A stretch of DNA of 42,434 bases from assembly GCA_003647275.1 (NCBI GenBank), contig QMMN01000018.1:1-42434 (forward strand). The letters run 5' to 3'. The notes under the pieces were generated by a model that did no database searches, was not told the origin of the DNA, and saw only the letters and a list, made by a program, of their open reading frames with translations. The stretch comes from Deltaproteobacteria bacterium. GTDB taxonomy: Bacteria > Desulfobacterota > Desulfobacteria > Desulfobacterales > C00003060. Below are positions 16,481 through 37,496 of this stretch, piece by piece (within the stretch, counting starts at the first letter, position 1; every line of letters begins with the position of its first letter). Both the position numbers and the translations under genes were made by a program.

Positions 16481-16776
16481 TCCATTTGCTATCCAGCCTG
16501 GTTCGATCCTTCCGACGCACTAGGGGTACGAGCCGCTAAACAATGCCTGAAGTTACCTTGTCATAGGTCAAAAGTTTGACACGTTGGCAAGCTCAGAGTC
16601 AAATTTGGTCATACCGCACATATAGATGCCTCAATAGATAGGCGTAAGTATCTGCAATATAATTGACAAATATTTCTATGCGCTATTCTGGCATGATTCC
16701 TGCTCACAGGGAGGGATGGTAGCGTATTCGCTATTGGAATTGTCAGTAAAGAATTTTTTGGCCTTTTCTCCTTTCT

Positions 16777-16835
16777 GAACTGCAAAAGCGAGCGCATTCC
16801 CTGTCCGCCTCAGACGGACTTCAGGGAGCTTCAAT
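16777..16835. repeat. Short palindromic element related to 12071-12218
   Basis: GAACTGCAAAAGCGAGCGCATTCCCTG is followed by a hairpin GTCCG-CCTCAGA-CGGAC and then TTCAGGGAGCTTCAAT. The flanks closely match the two outer parts of the element between serA and serC (GAACCGCAAAACCGAGTGCATTCCCTG and GCAGGGAGCTT). It directly abuts the histidine-kinase relic. Confidence 0.55.
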
Positions 16836-17166
16836 CTTGTTTCAGGGATAAAGGAGACTATGGCTGCAGAAGAAGGTCGAGCCGCCATTTCAGATAAGTT
16901 GGACCGTATCGCCGCTCAATGCTGCCCAGGCCATTGATGGCTATGTGGAGATTAATAAGTGACACGGGAATGGGAATTCCAAAAGAACATTTCTCTAAGA
17001 TATTCTACCCATTTTTTACGATTAAGGGTGTGGGCAAGGGCACAGGCCTGGGACTGAATGTCACCTGCAATATCATTAAAAGCATAAAAGAAGGATTGAT
17101 GTGAAGAGTACAGTGGGCATAAGGACTACATTTATCATCAGAATTCCTGTTGAGAGGGATAGATGA
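16836..17166 (+). pseudogene. Relic of a third sensor histidine kinase
   Basis: The fragments follow the order of the intact kinases at 17979 and 24170, with parts cut out. First comes [16 protein letters not shown] (dimerisation-domain loop). It jumps to AAQAI (N box region) with about 85 residues missing, then DGYVEI. Next is [20 protein letters not shown] and [11 protein letters not shown] (G1 to G2 boxes), and, in another frame, IDVKSTVG and TTFIIRIPVE (C-terminal end). Several stops and shifts interrupt it. Its final TGA overlaps the ATG of the DUF6901-like gene, as expected if the two were once a coupled kinase-partner pair. Confidence 0.85.
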
Positions 17167-17849
17167 AAATTAGTTACCGCTTTATATTTGAAGGCGGTAT
17201 CCAGAAGGTGTTTACAGTTAAATTGCATGCTGAGAGCTTGAATGTGATTTCCCCTGATGATCAGGCAAAGCCGGAGTGGACAAAACTGGCAAATTGTCGG
17301 TGTCAACACTGTCAGCTTGAGGAAAATAAGGTCCAATATTGCCCCATAGCCGTCAATATCAGTAAAGTGGCCGATTCTTTCAAGGCTTATACCTCCTACA
17401 ATAAGGTTAAGGTTTTGGTGGTAACCGAGGAAAGGGTCTATGGTAAAAAGACAACTGTCCAGAAGGCGCTCGGTTCTCTCTTGGGCATTTACATGGCTGC
17501 CAGCGGTTGCCCTTCCATGGAAAAATTAAAACCCATGGTCCGCTTTCATCTTCCCTTTGCCACAGTTGAAGAGACCGTATTTCGTTCCGCCAGTGCTTAT
17601 TTGTTAGGCCAATACTTTCTGAGAAAACAGGGGAAGCAAGCGGATCTAGACCTGATTGAATTGGCAGATTTTTATAAGGGGATTCAAATGGTCAATCGTG
17701 GTATGACCGAACGTCTCCGGGGGGTGGTTCGCAAAGATGCACTCAACAATGCAGTTATTTGTCTCGACATGTTTGCCAAAGAGATCCCTTATGCCATTGA
17801 AGATGGGCTGGATGAACTGGAGGGATTGTTTGGTGTTTACTGGCAATAG
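17163..17849 (+). CDS. DUF6901-like protein, unknown function
   Basis: The 228-residue soluble protein has a beta-rich N terminus (KISYRFIFEGGIQKVFTVKL) and a cysteine cluster at about residues 46-61 (CRCQHCQL, then QYCP) that could bind a metal. A helical C-terminal part contains GIYMAASGCPSMEKLKPMVRFHLPFAT. I associate this pattern with the DUF6901 family, often found next to signalling genes, but its role is unknown to me. The start overlaps the stop of the upstream kinase relic (ATGA), and another kinase-tail remnant lies directly downstream. It looks like the survivor of a duplicated kinase-DUF6901 unit. Confidence 0.75.
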   Translation: MKISYRFIFEGGIQKVFTVKLHAESLNVISPDDQAKPEWTKLANCRCQHCQLEENKVQYCPIAVNISKVADSFKAYTSYNKVKVLVVTEERVYGKKTTVQKALGSLLGIYMAASGCPSMEKLKPMVRFHLPFATVEETVFRSASAYLLGQYFLRKQGKQADLDLIELADFYKGIQMVNRGMTERLRGVVRKDALNNAVICLDMFAKEIPYAIEDGLDELEGLFGVYWQ

Positions 17850-17937: not shown

Positions 17938-17978
17938 CCATCAAAATGAATTGGTGCCGAATTTCAGGAGAAAAAAAC

Positions 17979-20015
17979 GTGGGAAACTTAACTTTGAGAG
18001 GTAAAATAACCATCTTTGCGGTAACATTATTGTTGTTGATGGGCTGTTCTATAGCAGCAACAGTGTATGCCTTGCATCGAATTCACATTGTCATGTATGA
18101 GGCGAAGTCTATTTTTATTATTGAAAGACAATTCCAAAAGATGGCGCTTTGTTTTGAAAAAAGCCTGATGGGGCCGCATGACTATCTCATACGGAGAACA
18201 GAGGACGAAAAGAAGAGGTTTGCAAAGGTTTTTGAAAAACTAATGATTGAAAATGCCAACCTAAAAGGCTTGATTATGGACACAAGACTCAAGGCTACCC
18301 CCCGCCTTTGTCAACAACTGAGAGAAACAGAAAAAAGGCTTTTGGCTTTAGAAGAAGTGTTCTCACAGTATGAAATCGCAGCAGGAAAGGTTCTGGGCCT
18401 CAAAAACCCGTTTGGTAACCCCAAGGCTGGATCTTACATGGAAGAGATGGATGCGATCGTGGACAAAGTGACCGATGTCCTGGCAGAAGAGGTAATGTTA
18501 TTGTCGGAAATATCAGATGCAGCAATAGAGCAAATTCATACACTCTATCAGCACATTATGATTTTAATGACCATATTGGGCATCGTGGCTGTTTTGGCAG
18601 GAAGCCTTCTCAACTATTATGTGATCCAAAGCATCACCGGCCCGGTAGGGCATCTGGTTGCCACCACCCGAAAGATAACAAGCGGTGATTTTACTGCAAG
18701 GGCAAAAGTAGAAACACACGATGAAATCGGCGAACTGGCCTGCCAGTTTAATGAGATGGTTGACAATCTGGTAGGTGCCCGGGAACTGACGTCTGCCATC
18801 TTGCATGGGTCAGGAGATGGTATGCGTGTGATCGACAAAGATTTTAACATCTTCCAGTCTAATGTAGAGATGGAAAAGCTCACAGGCATTGCCAGTGGAG
18901 AATCTGTGGGGCAGAAATGTTATGAACACTTCCACCATGAGGTTTGTCACACAGAAATGTGCACTCTCAGGCGTGTCCTGATGGGCGAAGAACGGATTGT
19001 ATCCGAAGTCATCAAGGAAACAAGAGATGGTCGAAAGATACCTGTTCAATTTGTTGCTACCCCTTTAAAAAAGGGGGGTGAAATAATAGGTGTTATTGAA
19101 TCCTTCCGCGATATTAGCGAACGTAAGCAAGCCGAGGAGGCGCTGCAAAAATCACATGACGAATTGGAACAAATGTTGCAGAGACTAAAAGAGACGCAGG
19201 CTCAAGTGTTACAGTCTGAAAAGTTGGCCTCCATCGGCCAATTGGCCGCAGGTGTGGCCCACGAGATCAATAATCCTACTGGATTCATTAGCAGCAATTT
19301 ACATAGCTTGGCGAGCTATGAGAAGGATATCAGTGCGTTGATCGCAGAATACAGGTCCTTGATTTCGGAATTGAACAAGGCTGTGGCGACCGAAGAAGGT
19401 CGAGCCGCCATTTCAGAGAAACTGGAGCGGATCGCTGCCCTTGAAAAGGAAATCGACATCGAGTTTCTCCTGGATGATACCCCGAACCTGATCAAAGAGT
19501 GCCGGGAGGGCACTGAACAGATCAAGAAAATCGTCATCGACTTGAAGGATTTTGCTCATCCCGGCGAGGGTAAGCTAAAATATGCGGATATTAACAAATG
19601 CCTGGATTCAACCCTTAACATTGTTTGGAATGAACTCAAATACAAGGCCACAGTCACAAAAGAATACGGGGACCTGCCAGAGGTGCAATGTTATCCCCAG
19701 CAACTCAATCAGGTTTTCATGAACCTTTTGGTCAATGCTGCCCAGGCCATAGAAAATAAGGGGGAGATCCGGATTGTAACCCAGGCCAATGATGGCTATG
19801 TGGAGATTAAAATAAGTGACACTGGGGTGGGGATCCCCAAAGAAAATCTCTCTAAGATATTCGACCCTTTTTTTACCACCAAAGAGGAGGGAAAGGGGAC
19901 GGGTTTGGGCCTTAACGTTACTTATCAGATCGTTAAGAAGCACAAGGGAACTATCGACGTGGAAAGTACTGTTGGCGCGGGGACCACATTTACGATTCGG
20001 ATACCGGTGGATTAG
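17979..20015 (+). CDS. Membrane sensor histidine kinase with HAMP and Cys-rich PAS domains
   Basis: The 678-residue protein starts at GTG 17979, backed by AGGAG 8 bases upstream; an ATG at 17946 lacks such a site. Order: TM1 (about 9-32), a helical periplasmic sensor region, TM2 (about 194-216), HAMP (217-269), PAS (270-381), coiled coil, a dimerisation domain with the phospho-acceptor His428 in [14 protein letters not shown], and an HATPase domain with GVGIP, FDPFFTT and GKGTGLGL. The PAS domain has Cys and His residues ([18 protein letters not shown]) that may bind a metal or redox cofactor. The kinase core is very similar to that of the kinase at 24170. The HD-GYP regulator follows after 61 bases and is the obvious partner. 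Confidence 0.92.
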
Positions 20016-20076: not shown

Positions 20077-21438
20077 ATGGCGCTAAAATACAAACATACT
20101 CTGCTGCTCGTAGACGACGAGGAGTCGATCACAAAATCGCTCCAGCGGCTATTTCGCCAAGAGGCTTATGAGATCTATACCGCATCGAGCGGGCAGGAAG
20201 GTCTGAAGATGCTCAAAGAGGCCCAAAAGCCGTTTTCCCTTATTATTTCTGATCAGCGAATGCCGGAGATGACAGGTGTGCAGTTCCTTGAAAAGACGAA
20301 AAAAATCTTTCCCTGGGCTGTACGAATCCTTTTGACCGCTTATTCTGACATCGATGCCATTGTGGATGCTGTAAACAGGGGAGAGATCCACAGGTATTTT
20401 CCCAAGCCATGGAATGAGGAGGATCTTTTGCTTCAAGTCCGACAGTGCCTTGAGCAATATGAGCTGGTCGTGGAAAACCGCCGGCTGCTTGCCCTCACAA
20501 AAAAGCAGAACAAAGAACTCGGTGAGCTAAACAAGAACCTTGAAAACAAGGTGGCAGAGCGCTCCAGGGAAATTGTTGAAAAGAACAAAGAGCTGTCCCG
20601 TTTAAACCAGGAACTCGAATCGAGCCTCTATAACACGGTCCGGGCCTTTGCCTCGCTTGTCGAGATGCACACCCCTTCATTGGCAGGGCACGGAAGGCGC
20701 GTGAGTGTTATGTCGCGCGAGATTGCCCAGCTTCTTGACCTGCCCGAAGACGAGGTCACCCAGATAGAAATCGCCGCTCTTTTGCATGACATTGGGAAGC
20801 TCGGGTTTCCTCAAAGACTCTTGAAATATGAAGAGAACAAATGGACTTCGCAAGACAGGACATTGTTTCGGAACCACCCGCAGGAGGGTCAGGCAACGGT
20901 TCAGTTTATCAACAAGCTGGACCATGTTGGGTTATTGATCAGGAGTCACCACGAGCACTATGACGGCCAGGGGTATCCGGATCAACTGGCCGAGGAGGAG
21001 ATACCATTAGGCTCCAGGATTATCGCTGTAGCAGATGCCTATGACAAGATCGTTAACCTGAAGATTGATGTGGACAGATCGCTTAAAGAGGTTACAAAAG
21101 CGAGCAAGGTAACCCAGGATCATTTACCTGAAGATGAAGTCTTGCAAAAGGCCGCGATCCTCCATTTAAGGGAACACGGCTTTACCCGGTATGATCCGGA
21201 TATTGTCAAGGTCTTTTTGAACCTTCTCAAGACAAGAGGGATAACTTATGGGAGGGAAAAGGAGGTATCAATCAACGATTTGAAGGAAGGTATGATTCTG
21301 TCAAGGTCGATCTATTCTTCCAGCGGGCGGTTCTTACTTCCCCATAATACGACCTTAACAAGAGATTATATCAGAAAACTAACGGCGCTTCATAAGAACG
21401 ATCCGATCACTGATGTGATTTACGTGAGGGGAGAGTGA
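20077..21438 (+). CDS. Response regulator with HD-GYP domain (RpfG-like)
   Basis: The 453-residue protein has a receiver domain (1-125, Asp59 in ISDQRMPEM, Lys110 in FPKPW), a coiled-coil linker (about 130-185) and an HD-GYP domain. That domain has HDIGKLGFP at 237-245, HHEHYDGQGYP at 291-301 and VADAYD at 318-323. HD-GYP enzymes degrade cyclic di-GMP to pGpG or GMP. All visible catalytic and metal residues are present, so it should be active. It also has a C-terminal extension with DLKEGMILSRSIYSSSGRFLL, a module often seen in this subfamily. Neighbours are a sensor kinase upstream and an HDOD protein 30 bases downstream, a common trio. Confidence 0.93.
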   Translation: MALKYKHTLLLVDDEESITKSLQRLFRQEAYEIYTASSGQEGLKMLKEAQKPFSLIISDQRMPEMTGVQFLEKTKKIFPWAVRILLTAYSDIDAIVDAVNRGEIHRYFPKPWNEEDLLLQVRQCLEQYELVVENRRLLALTKKQNKELGELNKNLENKVAERSREIVEKNKELSRLNQELESSLYNTVRAFASLVEMHTPSLAGHGRRVSVMSREIAQLLDLPEDEVTQIEIAALLHDIGKLGFPQRLLKYEENKWTSQDRTLFRNHPQEGQATVQFINKLDHVGLLIRSHHEHYDGQGYPDQLAEEEIPLGSRIIAVADAYDKIVNLKIDVDRSLKEVTKASKVTQDHLPEDEVLQKAAILHLREHGFTRYDPDIVKVFLNLLKTRGITYGREKEVSINDLKEGMILSRSIYSSSGRFLLPHNTTLTRDYIRKLTALHKNDPITDVIYVRGE

Positions 21439-21468: not shown

Positions 21469-22329
21469 ATGGACGCACAGACATTTTTCAGGAAACTGGA
21501 TCGTATCCAGGAGATTCCGACACTGCCCACTGTAGCACTCAAAGTTAACAAGATGCTCCAGGACTACGACACTTCCATCAAAACCTTGAGCAAAACAATA
21601 GAAAAGGACCAGGCCATGGTTTCCAAGATTTTAAGGCTGGTCAACTCGGCCTTTTACGGATTCCAATCCAGAATTAACAACATTCCCCATGCTGTGACTA
21701 TATTAGGTTTCAACACCGTTCGCAATGCGGTTATTTCGGTTTCGATTATAGATACTTTTTCAGAAAAAGGTGCCTTTGAAGGCTTTAACGTCACAGACTT
21801 CTGGAAACATTCGGTTGCGGTGGCCGTGACAAGCAGGTACTTGGCCGAGAAAACCCGCCTGGCCATCCCTGATGAGAGTTTTGTTGCAGGGCTCCTGCAT
21901 GATGTGGGGAAGGTGGTTCTAGCTCAGCATTTTAAGGAGTTTTTCGGACAGGTATGGGAATCAATGCACAAGGATGATCTATCCTTTTATGAGGCTGAAA
22001 AGAAGTTGTTGCCCGCCAACCACGCACAAATCGGAGCGCATTTGGCCAAAAGATGGCACCTCCCTGCTGGTCTCATCGATGCTATGAGGTATCATCATGC
22101 TGTGAGAAAAACTGCCTACAATCTAAATTTATTAATATCTGTTCATGTTGCTGACATCATTGTAAACAATTACAAGATTGATCCGGAAAGCGAATCTGAC
22201 TTTTCTGTCACCCATCCCGAGGCCGTAAAGCTCATGGCGGCCGAATTGGAAACCGTGTCAGATTGGTTTCCTAATGTGTCAACCGAGATTGAGTCAGCCT
22301 GCGACTTTTTTCTTGAAGAAGGGGAATAG
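21469..22329 (+). CDS. HDOD-domain signalling protein
   Basis: The 286-residue protein is a stand-alone HDOD domain. It starts with IPTLPTVALKVNKMLQDYD, then ISKIL-type helices (DQAMVSKILRLVNSAFYG), the turn VTILGFNTVRNAVIS, and GLLHDVGKVVLAQHF with the HD pair retained. HDOD proteins act as signalling scaffolds and are not known as c-di-GMP hydrolases in general. It lies between the HD-GYP regulator and the first heptamer repeat junction. Confidence 0.92.
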   Translation: MDAQTFFRKLDRIQEIPTLPTVALKVNKMLQDYDTSIKTLSKTIEKDQAMVSKILRLVNSAFYGFQSRINNIPHAVTILGFNTVRNAVISVSIIDTFSEKGAFEGFNVTDFWKHSVAVAVTSRYLAEKTRLAIPDESFVAGLLHDVGKVVLAQHFKEFFGQVWESMHKDDLSFYEAEKKLLPANHAQIGAHLAKRWHLPAGLIDAMRYHHAVRKTAYNLNLLISVHVADIIVNNYKIDPESESDFSVTHPEAVKLMAAELETVSDWFPNVSTEIESACDFFLEEGE

Positions 22330-22422: not shown

Positions 22423-23247
22423 ATGAACGATTACAAACATACAGTCCTTTGTGTGGATGACGAGGAGAATATCTTAAGCTCCTTAAAACGATTGCTCCGA
22501 AAGGAGGGCTACCGTCTCTTGACGGCTACAAGTGGCACTGCGGGCCTTAAACTTCTTGAAGAAAACGAGGTTCATTTAGTCATATCCGATCAGCGGATGC
22601 CCGAGATGAGCGGCACTGAGTTTTTATCTGTCGTAAAAGAACGGTATCCTGATACGATTCGTGTCGTCCTTACAGGGTACACGGACGTGGACGCCATTAC
22701 CGAGTCAATAAACAAAGGGCATATCTATAAATTCCTCCTAAAACCGTGGAACGATCAAAATCTGAAATTGGAAATCAAACAGGCCCTGAAACAATATGAC
22801 CTTATCCAGGCCAATGAGGAGCTGCACCAAAAGGTTCTGCACCAAAACAAAGAGTTAAAGAGAATGAATGAGAACCTGGAGGCACTGGTTCAAGAAAGAA
22901 CAAAGGAGCTTGAGATTCAGAACCAGGCCCTGGAGCTCTCACGGGCTGTGCTGGAGGACCTGCCCATACCCATCATCGGTGTCAGCGCTGAAGGGGGTAT
23001 TGTCCTAATAAATCAAGGGGCCCAGGCGTTATCATTCAACGGCAAGAGCATTGAGATAGGAAAAGAACTTGTAGATTACTTTTCAACTGATGCGGAAAAG
23101 AAAATGGCCGATGTAGTCGAAACCAACATGCCCCAAACACTTCAGGACTACCGGCTGTCAGATGGGGTCTATGATATCTATTTTACCCCTCTGTCTGGAA
23201 AGTTTCGAGGTAAAGGGGTTATCATGGCCTTTGTCATTTGTCATTAG
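22423..23247 (+). CDS. Response regulator with C-terminal PAS-like domain
   Basis: The 274-residue protein has a receiver domain (1-125, Asp56 in ISDQRMPEMSG, Lys109 in LLKPW), a coiled coil (about 128-175) and a PAS-like domain (about 180-270, beginning RAVLEDLPIPIIGVSAEGGIVLIN). There is no enzymatic or DNA-binding output, so it probably relays or tethers signals. Its last five residues FVICH and the stop codon are encoded by the adjacent heptamer repeat (TTTGTCATTTGTCATTAG). The native end may therefore have been replaced by repeat sequence. The start ATG 22423 has the shared GAACGGAGTAGG leader. Confidence 0.88.
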   Translation: MNDYKHTVLCVDDEENILSSLKRLLRKEGYRLLTATSGTAGLKLLEENEVHLVISDQRMPEMSGTEFLSVVKERYPDTIRVVLTGYTDVDAITESINKGHIYKFLLKPWNDQNLKLEIKQALKQYDLIQANEELHQKVLHQNKELKRMNENLEALVQERTKELEIQNQALELSRAVLEDLPIPIIGVSAEGGIVLINQGAQALSFNGKSIEIGKELVDYFSTDAEKKMADVVETNMPQTLQDYRLSDGVYDIYFTPLSGKFRGKGVIMAFVICH

Positions 23248-23424: not shown

Positions 23425-24069
23425 ATGGCTGAACTAAGTGAGAAAGAAAAGAAAATGGTGGTCAAGGTTGTTTACTACGGTCCTGCATTGAGCGGGAAGA
23501 CGACCAATCTCATGCAACTTCATGACATTCTGAATCCGGCCAGGTGCGGTGAATTCATGACCTTTGAGACCAAGGGAGACAGGACCCTCTTTTTTGATTT
23601 CCTTCCATTGATGATAACATCGGAAAGCGATTTTAGAATCAAGATAAAACTTTTCACGGTTCCGGGCCAGGTAGCGCACGATGCCACGCGAAAGGCGGTT
23701 TTGTCCCGGGCAGATGCGGTGGTATTTGTAGCTGATTCCCAGATAAGCCAGTCGATGAGCAATTTTGAGAGCTTTGACAACCTGGAAAAAAATGCAGGCC
23801 GTGTGGGCCTTGATTTTGACAATCTCCCACTGGTGGTACAGTTTAATAAGCGAGACCTGAGGGATATCATTAGCGAGGAGGAGGTGTTAGATCGATGGCG
23901 GCCCACAGGGCTTCCGATTACGTTCAGCTCGGCCCTTTACGGCCGTGGTGTGAAGGAGACCTTTGAAATAGTATTAAAACAGATCTATCAAAAATTGAAT
24001 AATATCTATAGATTGAAGGGAAAGTATTTGGTCACGGAGAATAATTTCTTGAGCATGATTCCAAGGTGA
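23425..24069 (+). CDS. MglA-like small Ras-family GTPase
   Basis: The 214-residue protein has the P-loop GPALSGKTTN (19-28), the switch II motif TVPGQ (78-82) with MglA-like features, and the guanine-specificity motif NKRD (141-144). MglA-type GTPases set cell polarity and place type IV pili and gliding machinery in myxobacteria and others. No MglB/roadblock partner is in the window. The gene sits between two heptamer-repeat junctions within the two-component cluster and two genes ahead of a PilB-like ATPase fusion, which fits a role in pilus or surface-machine positioning. That role is inference. Confidence 0.88.
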   Translation: MAELSEKEKKMVVKVVYYGPALSGKTTNLMQLHDILNPARCGEFMTFETKGDRTLFFDFLPLMITSESDFRIKIKLFTVPGQVAHDATRKAVLSRADAVVFVADSQISQSMSNFESFDNLEKNAGRVGLDFDNLPLVVQFNKRDLRDIISEEEVLDRWRPTGLPITFSSALYGRGVKETFEIVLKQIYQKLNNIYRLKGKYLVTENNFLSMIPR

Positions 24070-24073
24070 GGGG

Positions 24074-24151
24074 TCATTTGTCATTTGTCATTGGTCACTG
24101 GTCATTGCGAGTTGCGAGTTGCAAATGACAAATGACGAGTGACAAATGACA
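24074..24151. repeat. Heptamer repeat pair, junction 3
   Basis: Units TCATTTG, TCATTTG, TCATTGG, TCACTGG, TCATTGC fill 24074-24108. After GAGTTGCGAGTT come inverted units (AAATGAC, AAATGAC, GAGTGAC, AAATGAC) to 24151. A 3' ATGAC unit gives a false upstream start for the next gene. The leader GCGAACGGAGTGAGCGAA follows. Confidence 0.9.
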
Positions 24152-24169
24152 GCGAACGGAGTGAGCGAA

Positions 24170-25549
24170 ATGACAAAGGATTTTGACCGAGAATATGGCC
24201 TGACCGAACTCCTCTCAACCTCGGTGCTTGACGACCTGTGGGCAGAGGTACAAAAGGTTGCGCCCGTTGTCGTCGTGATGCTATTGCCGGACGGCACACC
24301 ATACTACCCCAAGGACTCCCTGTCTCCGGAAGAGGCGGCCACTATTGGCAGGATCTTGCACCGGGAAAGGCTGGATTCGCTTAAGACATTCAGATCGGCA
24401 CAGAGCAGAATCACTATTTTACCCATTACGCACGAACTTGAAACTATAGGCTATCTGGTTCTCCGATATGAGAAAGATGGAGATCGCTCATCATGTCCGG
24501 TTGTCCCTCTCGGGTGCTTTCTCCTGAAGGTACTAAACCATCTTATAATCTGTAACTATAAGAATCAGTTGACAGCAGGGCTTCATGAGCACGTAGTCAA
24601 AGAGTCATATGACCAGCTCAAGGAGAAGGCTGCTCTCCTGGAAAAATCAGAGCGAAAATACCGGCGCCTGGCCGAAAGCCTTGAAATAGAGGTGGAAAAG
24701 AAGACCCAGAAAATAAAAGAGACCCAGGCCCGGTTAATGCAGCAGGAAAAAATGGTTTCCATTGGGCAATTGGCTGCTGGTGTCGCCCATGAGATCAATA
24801 ATCCCATGGGATTTATCAGCAGCAACTTGAATACCCTGGAAGGCTATGAGAAGGACATCGGATCATTGATTCAGGAATACAGGCTCCTCGTTTCAGGGAT
24901 AAAAAAGGGGGCCATGAGTTCCGAAGAAGATCGAGCAGCGATTTTAGAGACATTGGACCGTATTGTTGCACTGGAAAAGGACATGGACATCGATTTTATC
25001 CTGGATGATGTCCCGAATTTGATCAAAGAGTGCCAAGAGGGAGCTGAACGTATCAAAAGGATCGTAATCGACTTGAAGAATTTTGCCCATCCGGGCAAGC
25101 AAAAGCTTGAATACGTGGATATCAATCGTAACCTCAACTCTACGCTGAACATTGTCTGGAACGAACTCAAGTACAAGGCCACGGTCACAAAGGAATACGG
25201 AGACCTACCGCAGGTGCAATGTTATCCCCAGCAGCTGAATCAGGTCTTCATGAATATTTTAGTCAATGCAGCCCAGGCAATAGAAAAACAGGGTGAGATA
25301 AACATTACGACAAGGGCACTAGAAGATGGGAAAGTGGAGATTACGATCAGTGACACGGGATCAGGCATCCCCAAAGAGAACCTCTCCAAGATATTCGATC
25401 CATTTTTCACCACCAAAGAGGTGGGAAAAGGGACAGGTTTGGGGCTCAATGTTGCCTATAACATTATCAAGAAACACGAAGGCACCATTGATGTTCAAAG
25501 CGAGGTAGGCAAGGGAACTACATTTACGATTCGAATACCGGTGGGATAG
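24170..25549 (+). CDS. Cytoplasmic sensor histidine kinase
   Basis: The 459-residue protein has no membrane segment. An N-terminal domain of about 130 residues looks like a sensor (VVVVMLLPDGTPYYP, then IGYLVLRY) of unknown ligand. A coiled coil (about 145-190) leads to the dimerisation domain with His207 in [14 protein letters not shown] and an HATPase with GSGIP, FDPFFTT and GKGTGLGL. The catalytic core is nearly the same as in the kinase at 17979, including the long insert between H box and N box. I chose ATG 24170 because it follows the shared ribosome-binding leader; the in-frame ATG at 24146 lies inside the heptamer repeat. No cognate regulator is adjacent except the REC-ATPase fusion downstream. 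Confidence 0.9.
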   Translation: MTKDFDREYGLTELLSTSVLDDLWAEVQKVAPVVVVMLLPDGTPYYPKDSLSPEEAATIGRILHRERLDSLKTFRSAQSRITILPITHELETIGYLVLRYEKDGDRSSCPVVPLGCFLLKVLNHLIICNYKNQLTAGLHEHVVKESYDQLKEKAALLEKSERKYRRLAESLEIEVEKKTQKIKETQARLMQQEKMVSIGQLAAGVAHEINNPMGFISSNLNTLEGYEKDIGSLIQEYRLLVSGIKKGAMSSEEDRAAILETLDRIVALEKDMDIDFILDDVPNLIKECQEGAERIKRIVIDLKNFAHPGKQKLEYVDINRNLNSTLNIVWNELKYKATVTKEYGDLPQVQCYPQQLNQVFMNILVNAAQAIEKQGEINITTRALEDGKVEITISDTGSGIPKENLSKIFDPFFTTKEVGKGTGLGLNVAYNIIKKHEGTIDVQSEVGKGTTFTIRIPVG

Positions 25550-25695: not shown

Positions 25696-28116
25696 ATGTC
25701 CAGATTAGCGTCTCTTTTCATTGGGAAGGAAAAGGATTCAGAACAACCGAACGGGCATAAGGCGGCCGAGCAGGGAAAGACTACTTATAAGGTTCTGTTT
25801 GTTGATGACGAAGAAAATGTATTAAAGGCCATGCGCCGCATTTTCAGGCAAGAAAATTACACCATACTGACTGCGAGTTCCGGAGTCGAGGCCCTGAAGC
25901 TTCTCGAAAAAGAGCCGGTCCACGTCGTGATCTCCGATCACCGCATGCCGGGCATGACCGGGGCAGACCTGCTGCGCAAGGTCAAGGAACTGTATCCCCA
26001 GACCATCCGGATTATGCTCACCGGGCATGCCGACGTGGACGCGATCATGGGGGCCATCAATGAGGGGGCTGTTTACAAATTTATCACAAAACCCTGGAAC
26101 GACGCTGACTTGCGTCTTACGGTTAGCCTTGCTCTTGAGCAATATGATTTGATCCAGGAAAATAAGGCCTTAAAAAAACAGCGGGAGGCCCAAAAAAAGA
26201 AAATCAAGCAACTGAGTCGCTTTGTCAACATAAATCGGAGCCAACTTGGACGTATCCTGCTCCGGGAAAAACTGATCCAAAAGGAGGATCTGGATAAAGC
26301 TTTGGCGGTGCAGGCCAAGACGAATAAGATTTTGCCGAGGATCCTGATAGACATGGGGCTTGTGGATGAAGCAACCATTATAAAGACGATCCAATCAGAA
26401 CTTAGAATAAATCGGGTCTATCCGAATGAATTTGCGGTGCCAAAGGAGCTGGCATTACTCATCCCCAAAGAAATCTGTGAAAAAAATGTACTTGTGCCCC
26501 TCAAACGTGCTGATGGCCGATTAATCGTTGCTATGGCCGATCCCACTGATTTTATGAAGGTGGATGATCTGAAGTTTATTGTTGGGCTACCGGTTCAACC
26601 TGTTCTGTCTACCCAGAAAGAGATCATCGACAAATTACAGGAGCTTTATGGCGAGTCCAATATCGTTGAGGAAATAATATCTGAAGTCGATATGTCCGAC
26701 CCTTATGATACTATAGAAATCCTCTTAGACGAAGAGGATGAAGAAGCAGATATTGATGAGTTGCTGCGCGCCAAGGATCAACCGCCCGCCATCCGGATCG
26801 TCAATGCTATTATCTCTGAAGCCTTACGCTATAATGCCTCGGATGTTCACATTGAACCCAAGGCCAAGTATGTTATGGTGCGTTATCGCATAGACGGACT
26901 CCTTCACGATAAAATCCACATCCCACTTACGATGCATGCCTCCATTGTCTCCAGGATCAAGATCATAAGTGAACTGGATATAGCGGAACGGCGCAGACCT
27001 CAGGATGGCCGCGTGACCGTAAAAACTTCCTCTAAGATGGTAGACATGCGCATTTCCACGCTTCCCACGATTACCGGGGAAAAGGTAGTACTAAGGATAC
27101 TGGATAAGAACGCGGCCATCAAGGATATTGCAGAGCTGGGCCTTTCAGACAGGGACATGGAAAAACTTGTGCGATTGGTTTCACGGCCCCAGGGGGTTAT
27201 TCTGAGCACAGGGCCTACCGGCAGCGGAAAGACTACCACGCTCTACTCGCTTTTGCGGCAAGTGGCCACTACTATCAAGAATTATACAACCATTGAAGAT
27301 CCGGTAGAGTATTACATGGGCCTGGCGGAGCAGGTACTTGTCCGTGAAAAGATTGGTCTTCGGTTTCCCATTATCCTGCGGGCTCTCTTACGTCAGGACC
27401 CGGATGTGATTATGCTGGGGGAGATTAGGGACTTTGAAACCGCTGAAGTGGCCCTTCATGCGGCCATGACAGGGCACTTAGTGCTGAGTACCCTGCACAC
27501 AAACAGCGCCATAGCCTCGATTACACGCCTGAGGGATCTTGGGATCAAACCTTATGTGATCAGCGAAGCCTTGACCGGTATCATTGCCCAGCGGCTTGTA
27601 CGGCGTATCTGCCCGCATTGCAACAAGGTAGACGAGGATCCGACCGAAGAACAGCTCCGCGCCCTAAAATTGCACAAGAAAAGCCTCGATTTTACGCCTC
27701 AAAAGGGGGCCGGGTGTCAGCACTGTAACCAGACCGGGTACGCAGAAAGAATAGGGATTTTCGAAGTGTTCCAGATTGATGAGGAACTCAGGAAAATGAT
27801 CCACAGAGATGCTAATGAGACAGAACTTCTGAGGGCGGCACGGTGGTCGGGTATGACGACTCTCCTGGAGGATGCCATCAACAAAGTGAAAGCAGGTATC
27901 ACGACCTGTGAGGAGGTCCTGAGGGTCCTCGGACCACAAAACACCCTGGAAATTCCATGCCCGCATTGTGGTGTTCAACTGGAGGAACGATTTCAATTTT
28001 GCCCGTTTTGTGGGGGAACGGTTATCCCTTCTTGTGCCAGCTGTGGCAAATTCTTGGCTTCAACCTGGAAGGCCTGTCCTTACTGCGGGGGGAAGGTTGG
28101 TATTGGTCATTCATAA
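25696..28116 (+). CDS. Receiver domain fused to PilB/GspE-type ATPase with C-terminal zinc ribbons
   Basis: The 806-residue protein joins parts normally made separately. A receiver domain (about 31-150, Asp81 in ISDHRMPGM, Lys132 in TKPWN) and a helical linker are followed by an MshEN-like domain (about 180-320). This has two 24-residue-type repeats (QLGRILLREKLIQ and LPRILIDMGLV). The T2SS/T4P motor ATPase (about 360-745) has Walker A GPTGSGKT (506-513), Walker B VIMLGEIRD (571-579), the His-box stretch TGHLVLSTLHT, and the zinc site CPHC (639-642) with CQHC (674-677). A tail of two further zinc ribbons ends it: Cys pairs 755/758 with 769/772, and 780/783 with 794/797. PilB/GspE ATPases power pilus extension or secretion. 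MshEN domains can bind c-di-GMP, but these repeats are degenerate. The start ATG 25696 has an AGGAGTT site. Confidence 0.93.
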   Translation: MSRLASLFIGKEKDSEQPNGHKAAEQGKTTYKVLFVDDEENVLKAMRRIFRQENYTILTASSGVEALKLLEKEPVHVVISDHRMPGMTGADLLRKVKELYPQTIRIMLTGHADVDAIMGAINEGAVYKFITKPWNDADLRLTVSLALEQYDLIQENKALKKQREAQKKKIKQLSRFVNINRSQLGRILLREKLIQKEDLDKALAVQAKTNKILPRILIDMGLVDEATIIKTIQSELRINRVYPNEFAVPKELALLIPKEICEKNVLVPLKRADGRLIVAMADPTDFMKVDDLKFIVGLPVQPVLSTQKEIIDKLQELYGESNIVEEIISEVDMSDPYDTIEILLDEEDEEADIDELLRAKDQPPAIRIVNAIISEALRYNASDVHIEPKAKYVMVRYRIDGLLHDKIHIPLTMHASIVSRIKIISELDIAERRRPQDGRVTVKTSSKMVDMRISTLPTITGEKVVLRILDKNAAIKDIAELGLSDRDMEKLVRLVSRPQGVILSTGPTGSGKTTTLYSLLRQVATTIKNYTTIEDPVEYYMGLAEQVLVREKIGLRFPIILRALLRQDPDVIMLGEIRDFETAEVALHAAMTGHLVLSTLHTNSAIASITRLRDLGIKPYVISEALTGIIAQRLVRRICPHCNKVDEDPTEEQLRALKLHKKSLDFTPQKGAGCQHCNQTGYAERIGIFEVFQIDEELRKMIHRDANETELLRAARWSGMTTLLEDAINKVKAGITTCEEVLRVLGPQNTLEIPCPHCGVQLEERFQFCPFCGGTVIPSCASCGKFLASTWKACPYCGGKVGIGHS

Positions 28117-28120
28117 AAAC

Positions 28121-28310
28121 AAGTGCCTAAAGTGAACTAAAATGCCTAAAGTGAACTAAAGTTAAGGATAGGATTAAGATCATAAACATTTGCCAAAGAA
28201 GTTGAAAAACGGACTTGAAGATTTGCAAGGTTGATATTTTTTAGAATGAAGCCACTGAAACACAAATAATTTTAGGCACTTTAGCTCACTTTAGGCACTT
28301 TAGCTCACTT
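28121..28310. repeat. AGTGAACTAA / TTTAGGCACTT inverted repeat array
   Basis: At 28121-28161 the order is AAGTGCCTAA, AGTGAACTAA, AATGCCTAA, AGTGAACTAA. The inverted forms TTTAGGCACT, TTAGCTCACT, TTAGGCACT, TTAGCTCACT stand at 28272-28310. About 110 bases without coding potential lie between the two arrays. The whole could form a long imperfect hairpin. It belongs to the same family as 22-49 and 25653-25670. Just after it comes AACGGAGTGAGCCAAC, the same leader motif as at the three heptamer junctions, but here it is followed by ATAG rather than a start codon. Confidence 0.85.
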
Positions 28311-36133: not shown

Positions 36134-37496
36134 TCATACCTGCATCGCCAGCCGGTAGAAGCCTTTTTTCGGCGAACCGACGAATTCGACCAATCCATGT
36201 TTCTTCAGATACGCAATATCGCGTTTCGCGGTCTTCTCGGATACCTCCCAATGAGCAGCTAGATCAGCCGCTCTCGCCTGTCTGCCGGCCGCAAGTTGTT
36301 CCAGGAACCATTCTTGGCGATCATTTACAGGGACATTTACAGGGACATTTACAGGGACACGTGCCGCAGAATGTTCCACGACTTCAGGGTGGGGGTAAAA
36401 CAACACCCGCAAAGCCACGCCAAGTTCTCGCCATGCCGGCTCCGGGTAACCATCTGTCCGGCAAGCCTCCATCACCCGCTTGTAACCGCTCCCCCACTCC
36501 TCGATCAAGCCTAACTCTCGAAACACACGCGATGACCCGATTACGAATCTTGCTTACGCCTGCCTTGAATTCTTCCATGGTCATACCAAAAGGAAGCATG
36601 CCCGGATTCTGAATTTCCATACGATCCGCGTAGATCGCTACCAGGATACGCATGCCGGTCAAAGAGTAGTCAGCATGGGCGATGGCGTTCACTAGTACTT
36701 CGCGAATAGCCACCTCGGGATACTCCGGGATGTCCCTCCGGCGCATGGTCTCAATTTTTGCGGCGAGCCGCGTATTGCGGCGTATGAACCTTGGAACCTC
36801 CTCAACCGCATTCAGCACACCGCCGTCAATGTCCATACGGTCGATAAACTCGGCCTTGTCTGTTCCCCTGAACCGAGCGCAACTCACCCTCGCATCCGGA
36901 AAGTATCGTTGCCGAGCAGTATCTGTCCCGAACAAGATAACTCCCCCATAGGAAAGCACCCGTCTTCCCGCATACGCAACCAGCACGCCCAGAGATTCCA
37001 ATTTCTGTTTGTCTATTTTTCGCCCCACAGTGGCGAAGGCACGGTGAATCTTTTCCATATCCAGGTCACCAACGGACAGATCCGGGCACGGCGTTTGGTC
37101 ATACGAAAAACCCACCAACGAACGTTGCAACTCGGCCACAATCTCCGGACCCGCAACTCCCTTTTCCGCTCCCTCAGCCTTCAAGTAGAATGGGCCTCGC
37201 CAGTGAGGAACACGCACAACCAATAGTGGTTTCCCCTCATGAGAATAGATTTCAATCTCTGGTGTCATTGCAGGACGAATACCATCCGAGATGGCGCTGG
37301 CCAACCGTTCTTCAGCACGAAGCACATTCGGCACTCCTTGCAGCTCTCCATCATCCTTGCGCCCGATAATGAGCGTGCCGCCCGCCGTATTGGCAAACGC
37401 AACCAAGGTCTTCAGGATGGGCTTCATCGAAGAAAGGTCCCGCTTGAACTCAAGTGTCTTTCCCTCGGAACTGTTGAGAAGCTCGGCGATATTCAT
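36134..37496 (-). pseudogene. AlbA_2 (Schlafen-type) domain regulator/helicase-like gene, frameshifted
   Basis: The protein begins with an AlbA_2 domain (LEFKRDLSSMKPILKTLVAFANTAGGTLIIG). It continues with an RecG/HATPase-like middle (VAIREVLVNAIAHADYSLTG and NPGMLPFGMT). At about 36522-36530 one base is missing: the frame with NRVIA changes to RVFRELGLIEEWGSGYKRV, which continues through a VPVN repeat linker to a C-terminal winged helix (ARAADLAAHWEVSEKTAKRDIAYLKKHGLVEFVG). Repaired, it would be about 454 residues. Such proteins are often transcription regulators on mobile DNA. It may be a sequencing error instead of decay. It lies next to the tRNA-type att site. Confidence 0.85.
36323..36358 (-). 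repeat. Three exact 12-bp repeats encoding a VPVN linker
   Basis: ATTTACAGGGAC occurs three times in a row on the plus strand. On the coding strand it gives a VPVN tetrapeptide repeat, in frame, between the ATPase-like and winged-helix parts of the AlbA_2 protein. It may vary in number by slippage. Confidence 0.95.

Follow-up and report, generated by a model that had tools for sequence, protein, structure and literature searches.

A single gene in the analysed DNA encodes a PilB/GspE-type motor ATPase with a receiver (REC) domain at its N-terminus, and it is probable, at about 0.6, that phosphorylation has taken over from c-di-GMP as the signal acting directly on a pilus-type motor. The window, that is, the whole stretch of 42,434 nucleotides that was analysed, is the entire contig C18 of a 3.0-Mb draft genome in 172 contigs, which is about 96% complete. 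The motor, its domains and the signalling genes upstream of it are listed in Table 1.

Table 1. Features of the REC-motor gene and of the signalling genes upstream of it; positions refer to the window.
Feature	Position	Strand	Remarks
HAMP-PAS histidine kinase	17946..20015	+	75% identity to the soluble kinase in the catalytic core
REC-HD-GYP, predicted c-di-GMP phosphodiesterase	20077..21438	+	HD and HHExxDGxGYP motifs intact by sequence
HDOD protein	21469..22329	+	domain search
REC-PAS response regulator	22423..23247	+	domain search
MglA-like small GTPase	23425..24069	+	MglA structures are the best PDB matches, E 1e-41
Soluble histidine kinase, likely cognate partner of the REC-motor	24146..25549	+	may in fact start at 24170
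REC-MshEN-T2SSE-double zinc ribbon motor ATPase, 806 aa	25696..28116	+	single uninterrupted ORF
REC domain, residues 33-142, phospho-acceptor Asp81	25792..26121	+	Pfam Response_reg, 8e-26
REC helix 5 and linker helix, residues 136-177	26101..26226	+	one continuous helix in the model
MshEN (N1D) domain, residues about 178-320	26227..26655	+	both c-di-GMP motifs degenerate
PilB/GspE-type ATPase core, residues 359-743	26770..27924	+	Pfam T2SSE (PF00437), 1.4e-129, 432 bits
Double zinc ribbon, residues 755-798, eight Cys	27958..28089	+	Pfam DZR, 6.1e-8

The initial annotation had described a receiver, MshEN-like repeats, a complete T2SS/T4P ATPase and four extra CxxC pairs in one gene, and this layout was confirmed by Pfam searches, which also returned an MshEN match (residues 241-320, 2.8e-19), and by inspection of individual residues. 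The receiver contains the full phospho-acceptor set of a response regulator, comprising the acidic pair D37 and D38, the phospho-Asp D81, T109 and K132. The ATPase retains the Walker A lysine K512, the catalytic E534, the Walker B E576 and the histidines H594 and H601; these core motifs, together with the four-cysteine zinc site (C639, C642, C674 and C677), place the protein in the PilB/GspE secretion ATPase superfamily (T2SSE). The phospho-acceptor set and the key ATPase residues (Walker A, Asp box, Walker B and His box) are invariant in 76/76 REC-motors, and the zinc site is likewise invariant in the REC-motor alignment. Eight further cysteines form the pairs 755/758, 769/772, 780/783 and 794/797 in the tail. 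Just 3' of the gene, a 19-bp unit occurs as two tandem pairs (28124-28160 and 28271-28310) that look like mutual reverse complements; this may be a hairpin or terminator region.

The architecture search and taxonomic mapping proposed in the initial annotation located REC-motors in several bacterial groups, with about a hundred sampled relatives. A full-length orthologue is encoded by 26 of the 389 genomes of the same order (own genome counted) and a truncated one by two further genomes, while a phylum sample of 395 genomes yielded 18 more full-length REC-motors outside the order, and in addition one REC-motor that lacks the zinc tail and one that is truncated. A second collection, holding one genome per species, was scanned with two REC peptide patterns; 168 stretches matched, 149 of them encoded a relative, and among the best 80 of these 149 both REC and motor are encoded by 78 and the four CxxC pairs by 73; many organisms of the best 80 already occur in the first sets, so that the genome sets overlap. 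The hosts are uncultured and cultured Desulfobacterales (including Desulfatibacillum alkenivorans, Desulfoluna, Desulforapulum, Desulfosarcina cetonica and Desulfatitalea), Geobacter-type Desulfuromonadia (Geobacter argillaceus, Geomonas, Geotalea and Trichlorobacter) and many Nitrospirota bins; the relatives at 87% identity are metagenome bins of Desulfobacterales or Deltaproteobacteria. The suspicion that a frameshift or an assembly join of two genes near residue 150-180 had created the fusion can be dismissed in view of the 26 full-length orthologues, the 78 of the best 80 relatives and a connector that is constant in 76/76 proteins.

In the tree built from ATPase core sequences, one branch (support 100/98) has 45 REC-motors on one side, and 20 zinc-ribbon motors without REC form another group (98/95). 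Judged by sequence, the full-length REC-MshEN-ATPase(-zinc ribbon) proteins are one clade, strongly supported in the tested set. A single clade uniting both zinc-ribbon groups, with and without REC, was not rejected (p-AU 0.17), so that the zinc ribbon may have arisen once or more than once. The same double-zinc-ribbon tail occurs on PilB proteins without REC, in loci without the GTPase or an adjacent kinase; it does not depend on the receiver and was rejected as a hallmark of the fusion. For the same reason the proposal that the zinc ribbons are a docking part of phospho-control found no support, and the sequence and locus comparisons gave no sign that the tail docks any phospho-pathway component.

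The kinases, HD-GYP enzyme and MglA-like GTPase that had been noticed around the motor are all present, and an HDOD protein is encoded as well. A histidine kinase gene lies directly 5' of the motor in 36 of the 38 REC-motor loci read with flanks, and a gene for an MglA-like GTPase is found on the same strand within about 3 kb in 34; in one more locus the GTPase is 7.8 kb upstream, and for one exception among the 38 hardly any sequence is available on the upstream side. The named set, which overlaps with these loci, offers 72 loci with sufficient DNA upstream; 70 of them have the kinase and 67 the GTPase. No GTPase was found in the 20 loci of REC-less zinc-ribbon motors, where the only kinase is not adjacent to the motor. 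The distance from the kinase stop to the motor start is mostly -17 to +30 bp, the stop usually overlapping or abutting the start, which suggests translational coupling. Genes for REC-HD-GYP or HD-GYP-like, HDOD and REC-PAS proteins are common companions, less constant than the kinase and the GTPase. Shared descent accounts for part of the kinase and GTPase linkage; nevertheless, the same gene order recurs in different classes and in Nitrospirota bins, with proteins down to about 50% identical, which is more than chance. On the evidence of gene order and sequence, the GTPase, histidine kinase and REC-motor make up a conserved cassette. Its conservation across orders and in Nitrospirota bins supports the earlier suggestion of an integrated control unit that includes the GTPase and the HD-GYP enzyme.

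The adjacent kinase contains no strongly hydrophobic segment and is predicted to be soluble. The P-loop, DRT, TVPGQ and NKRD motifs expected of an MglA GTPase are conserved across 67 copies of the small GTPase. No Robl_LC7 match for an MglB/roadblock partner was obtained in the own genome (about 96% complete), and roadblock/MglB matches occur elsewhere in the genomes of several relatives. PADLOC reported nothing relevant for the motor, the GTPase or the kinase.

The intact receiver, its invariant phospho-acceptor site and the abutting gene for a soluble kinase bear out the idea that a kinase may control the motor directly. Alternatively, the receiver might have no part in phospho-gating and serve in dimerisation, as a scaffold or in polar localisation, bringing a constitutively active ATPase to the GTPase, as could be expected from the conserved GTPase gene beside the motor and from the interaction of Myxococcus MglA with the REC proteins RomR and FrzS (PMC4316618). 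However, all five phospho-acceptor residues are unchanged even in proteins of only about 50% sequence identity, whereas a pure scaffold would tolerate the loss of Asp81, and a kinase gene is adjacent nearly always; a receiver without phospho-gating is thus unlikely, though it fares best among the alternatives.

Several other kinases besides the adjacent one are encoded in the signalling island. In their catalytic cores the HAMP-PAS kinase (17946-20015) and the soluble kinase (24146-25549) correspond in DNA blocks of about 71-79% identity, while their sensor parts differ, as if the genes had been duplicated or converted; with near-identical cores, the two may be differently tuned sensors feeding the same receivers. 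A third, related histidine kinase core remnant with many stops occupies 16660-17160. Degenerate 7-bp repeats (AATGACN, in both orientations) crowd the intergenic gaps of the island between 20052 and 24150, where the two-unit pattern has 18 matches against 0.28 expected. Members of a 60-bp leader family immediately precede the REC-PAS and GTPase genes, and one overlaps the start of the soluble kinase as listed, which suggests the downstream start given in Table 1. The DUF6901 protein encoded at 17163-17849 has counterparts close to the REC-motor at loci L069 and L137. The gene at 36384-37496 codes for a Schlafen AlbA_2/RecG-C-like protein, for which PADLOC gave weak matches to models of the Argonaute type. 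In Trichlorobacter thiogenes (L252/L141) the REC-motor is present; the GTPase and adjacent kinase were not found upstream, and large REC/kinase genes are located there instead.

As to the machine served by the motor, its closest sequence and fold matches are PilB. Foldseek places the core fold closest to Geobacter and Thermus PilB/PilF, with 46-48% identity in the aligned core. No pilin gene is present in the signalling island and no PilC (platform) gene was recognised in the window, so that the pilus role rests on homology. It is rather improbable that the motor drives a type II secretion system or another GspE-type machine instead of a type IV pilus: the NCBIfam scores against TIGR02538 (type IV-A pilus PilB equivalog; 578 bits, curated cut-off 675.65) and TIGR02533 (GspE equivalog; 553.4 bits, cut-off 630.25) are close to each other and both under the cut-offs, but the top matches are PilB and no secretion genes were recognised near the motor within the window.

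The suspicion that a stand-alone PilB could be missing from the genome proved wrong, and the REC-motor was rejected as its sole PilB. Further PilB/GspE-type ATPases are encoded on contigs C4, C14, C48 and C99, and two of the other motors have a PilC-like gene just downstream. The C99-type ATPase clusters with those of two congeneric genomes that yielded no REC-motor. The idea of a PilC dedicated to the motor and encoded next to it was also discarded; none was recognised in the window and, by coordinates, every PilC of the complete genomes G484 and G701 is near another motor gene. The most economical reading is that of an accessory extension motor, which we infer to work in trans on a shared platform. 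A 772-aa motor ATPase of contig C48 (G000:C48:3816-6134, L088), with a long N-terminal part judged by eye to be GAF-like, is a second candidate for a signal-fused motor.

The MshEN c-di-GMP receptor consists of two 24-residue motifs with RLG at the beginning and Gln at the end (Wang et al., PMC5013675). The basic first residue, which stacks on guanine in c-di-GMP binding, is found in motif I of 0/76 REC-motors versus 41/48 controls, and in motif II of 0/76 versus 44/48. The glycine of motif II is kept in 23/76 REC-motors (replaced in 53/76) versus 46/48 controls, and its terminal Gln in 4/76 versus 44/48, while the K/R and the first Gly of both motifs are retained in all 20 REC-less zinc-ribbon motors. 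The REC-motors therefore lack the combination of basic first residue and Gly in two RLGxx motifs that marks an MshEN c-di-GMP receptor; of the MshEN-like repeats initially annotated, the fold stands and the signature residues are missing. Within the REC-motor clade the mean distance is 0.57 for MshEN versus 0.29 for REC. Control by c-di-GMP through MshEN has probably been lost in the REC-motors. The hydrophobic motif positions are largely kept and single charged-residue changes in MshE altered affinity at most about fivefold (PMC5013675), which makes the loss of c-di-GMP binding probable, not certain. Least probable of the alternatives is a dual input, in which the altered MshEN would still bind c-di-GMP and phosphorylation would modulate the motor, a reading favoured by these hydrophobic positions, some conserved glycines, an HD-GYP gene linked in many loci and the GGDEF proteins encoded in the own genome, but opposed by the loss of both guanine-stacking residues in all 76 REC-motors, of the terminal Gln in 72 and of the motif II Gly in most.

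In the AlphaFold model of the motor (mean pLDDT 72.7, pTM 0.42), one helix is predicted to join REC to MshEN, while the packing of REC on the hexamer is left unsettled by this pTM. The segment from K132 to G185 is 54 residues long in 76/76 REC-motors. A helix of constant length between receiver and output is a requirement for rigid signal transmission.

If phosphorylation has indeed replaced c-di-GMP, the upstream soluble kinase, as the likely partner, would phosphorylate Asp81, and in this genome the membrane HAMP-PAS kinase might perhaps do the same. The signal would pass along the continuous helix to the MshEN/N1D ring and would set the assembly or activity of the hexamer, presumably by activation rather than inhibition. 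The motor would then serve, in trans and alongside the housekeeping PilB, PilC platform proteins encoded elsewhere, while the MglA-like GTPase would determine the cellular site of its action, probably by positioning it. The linked HD-GYP enzyme could lower c-di-GMP and so damp the c-di-GMP-dependent motors, not the REC-motor. More tentatively, the proteins may represent a class of pilus motors that swapped c-di-GMP for two-component phosphorylation as the allosteric input, with REC placed on a c-di-GMP-blind MshEN ring and with genes for a Ras-like GTPase and for an HD-GYP enzyme in the same cassette, in which one signal would both activate the motor and lower the messenger of other motors.

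How the N-terminal ring of PilB-type motors turns a signal into activity is an open question in the field. Should the proposed control hold, a covalent phosphorylation switch, a helix of fixed length and an adjacent candidate kinase would make this coupling testable in vitro from just two purified components; Geomonas, G. argillaceus, D. alkenivorans and Desulfoluna are hosts available in culture. In addition, the cassette provides a genetic link between a Ras-like GTPase and a pilus motor. REC is named among the MshEN-associated domains in the main text of the MshEN study (PMC5013675). In a 2024 review of PilB control, the inputs given are c-di-GMP, PilZ and FimX, and where response regulators or REC domains are discussed no fused-receiver motor is mentioned (PMC11656802). 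In the open-access literature that was searched, neither experiments with the cis fusion nor an account of the GTPase-kinase-REC-motor cassette turned up; the domain combination itself is already indexed.

Among known systems, the extension ATPases PilB/PilF of Geobacter (5tsh, 5zfr) and Thermus (5oiu) share with the REC-motor the MshEN/N1D and ATPase core, the Walker motifs and the four-cysteine zinc site, but have no REC or fused kinase control. In the c-di-GMP-controlled ATPases of the MshE type MshEN also precedes the ATPase (PMC5013675), whereas the REC-motor has lost the c-di-GMP signature and has REC as an alternative input. The PATAN-REC regulators (PixE) of cyanobacterial PilB1 offer a case of a CheY-like protein acting on a pilus motor, as proposed here; however, PixE acts in trans and its release is attributed to a BLUF photoreceptor (PMC7690835), while the receiver described here is in cis and has an adjacent histidine kinase. 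In the MglA/RomR/SofG polarity systems of Myxococcus an MglA-like GTPase is likewise linked to REC proteins and to the positioning of PilB/PilT (PMC4316618), but the own genome has no MglB/roadblock match and its GTPase is in a cassette with the motor itself. The REC-less zinc-ribbon PilB proteins of other phylum members, mostly 620-660 aa, have the same MshEN-ATPase-double zinc ribbon layout at about 41% identity, and differ by the absence of REC, GTPase and adjacent kinase and by keeping the basic residue and first Gly in MshEN. The NtrC-type REC-AAA+ activators are hexameric ATPases with an N-terminal REC attached through a helical linker. They belong to another ATPase superfamily and have another output, but by analogy we infer that REC may gate the motor hexamer much as it gates the NtrC-type AAA+ hexamers.
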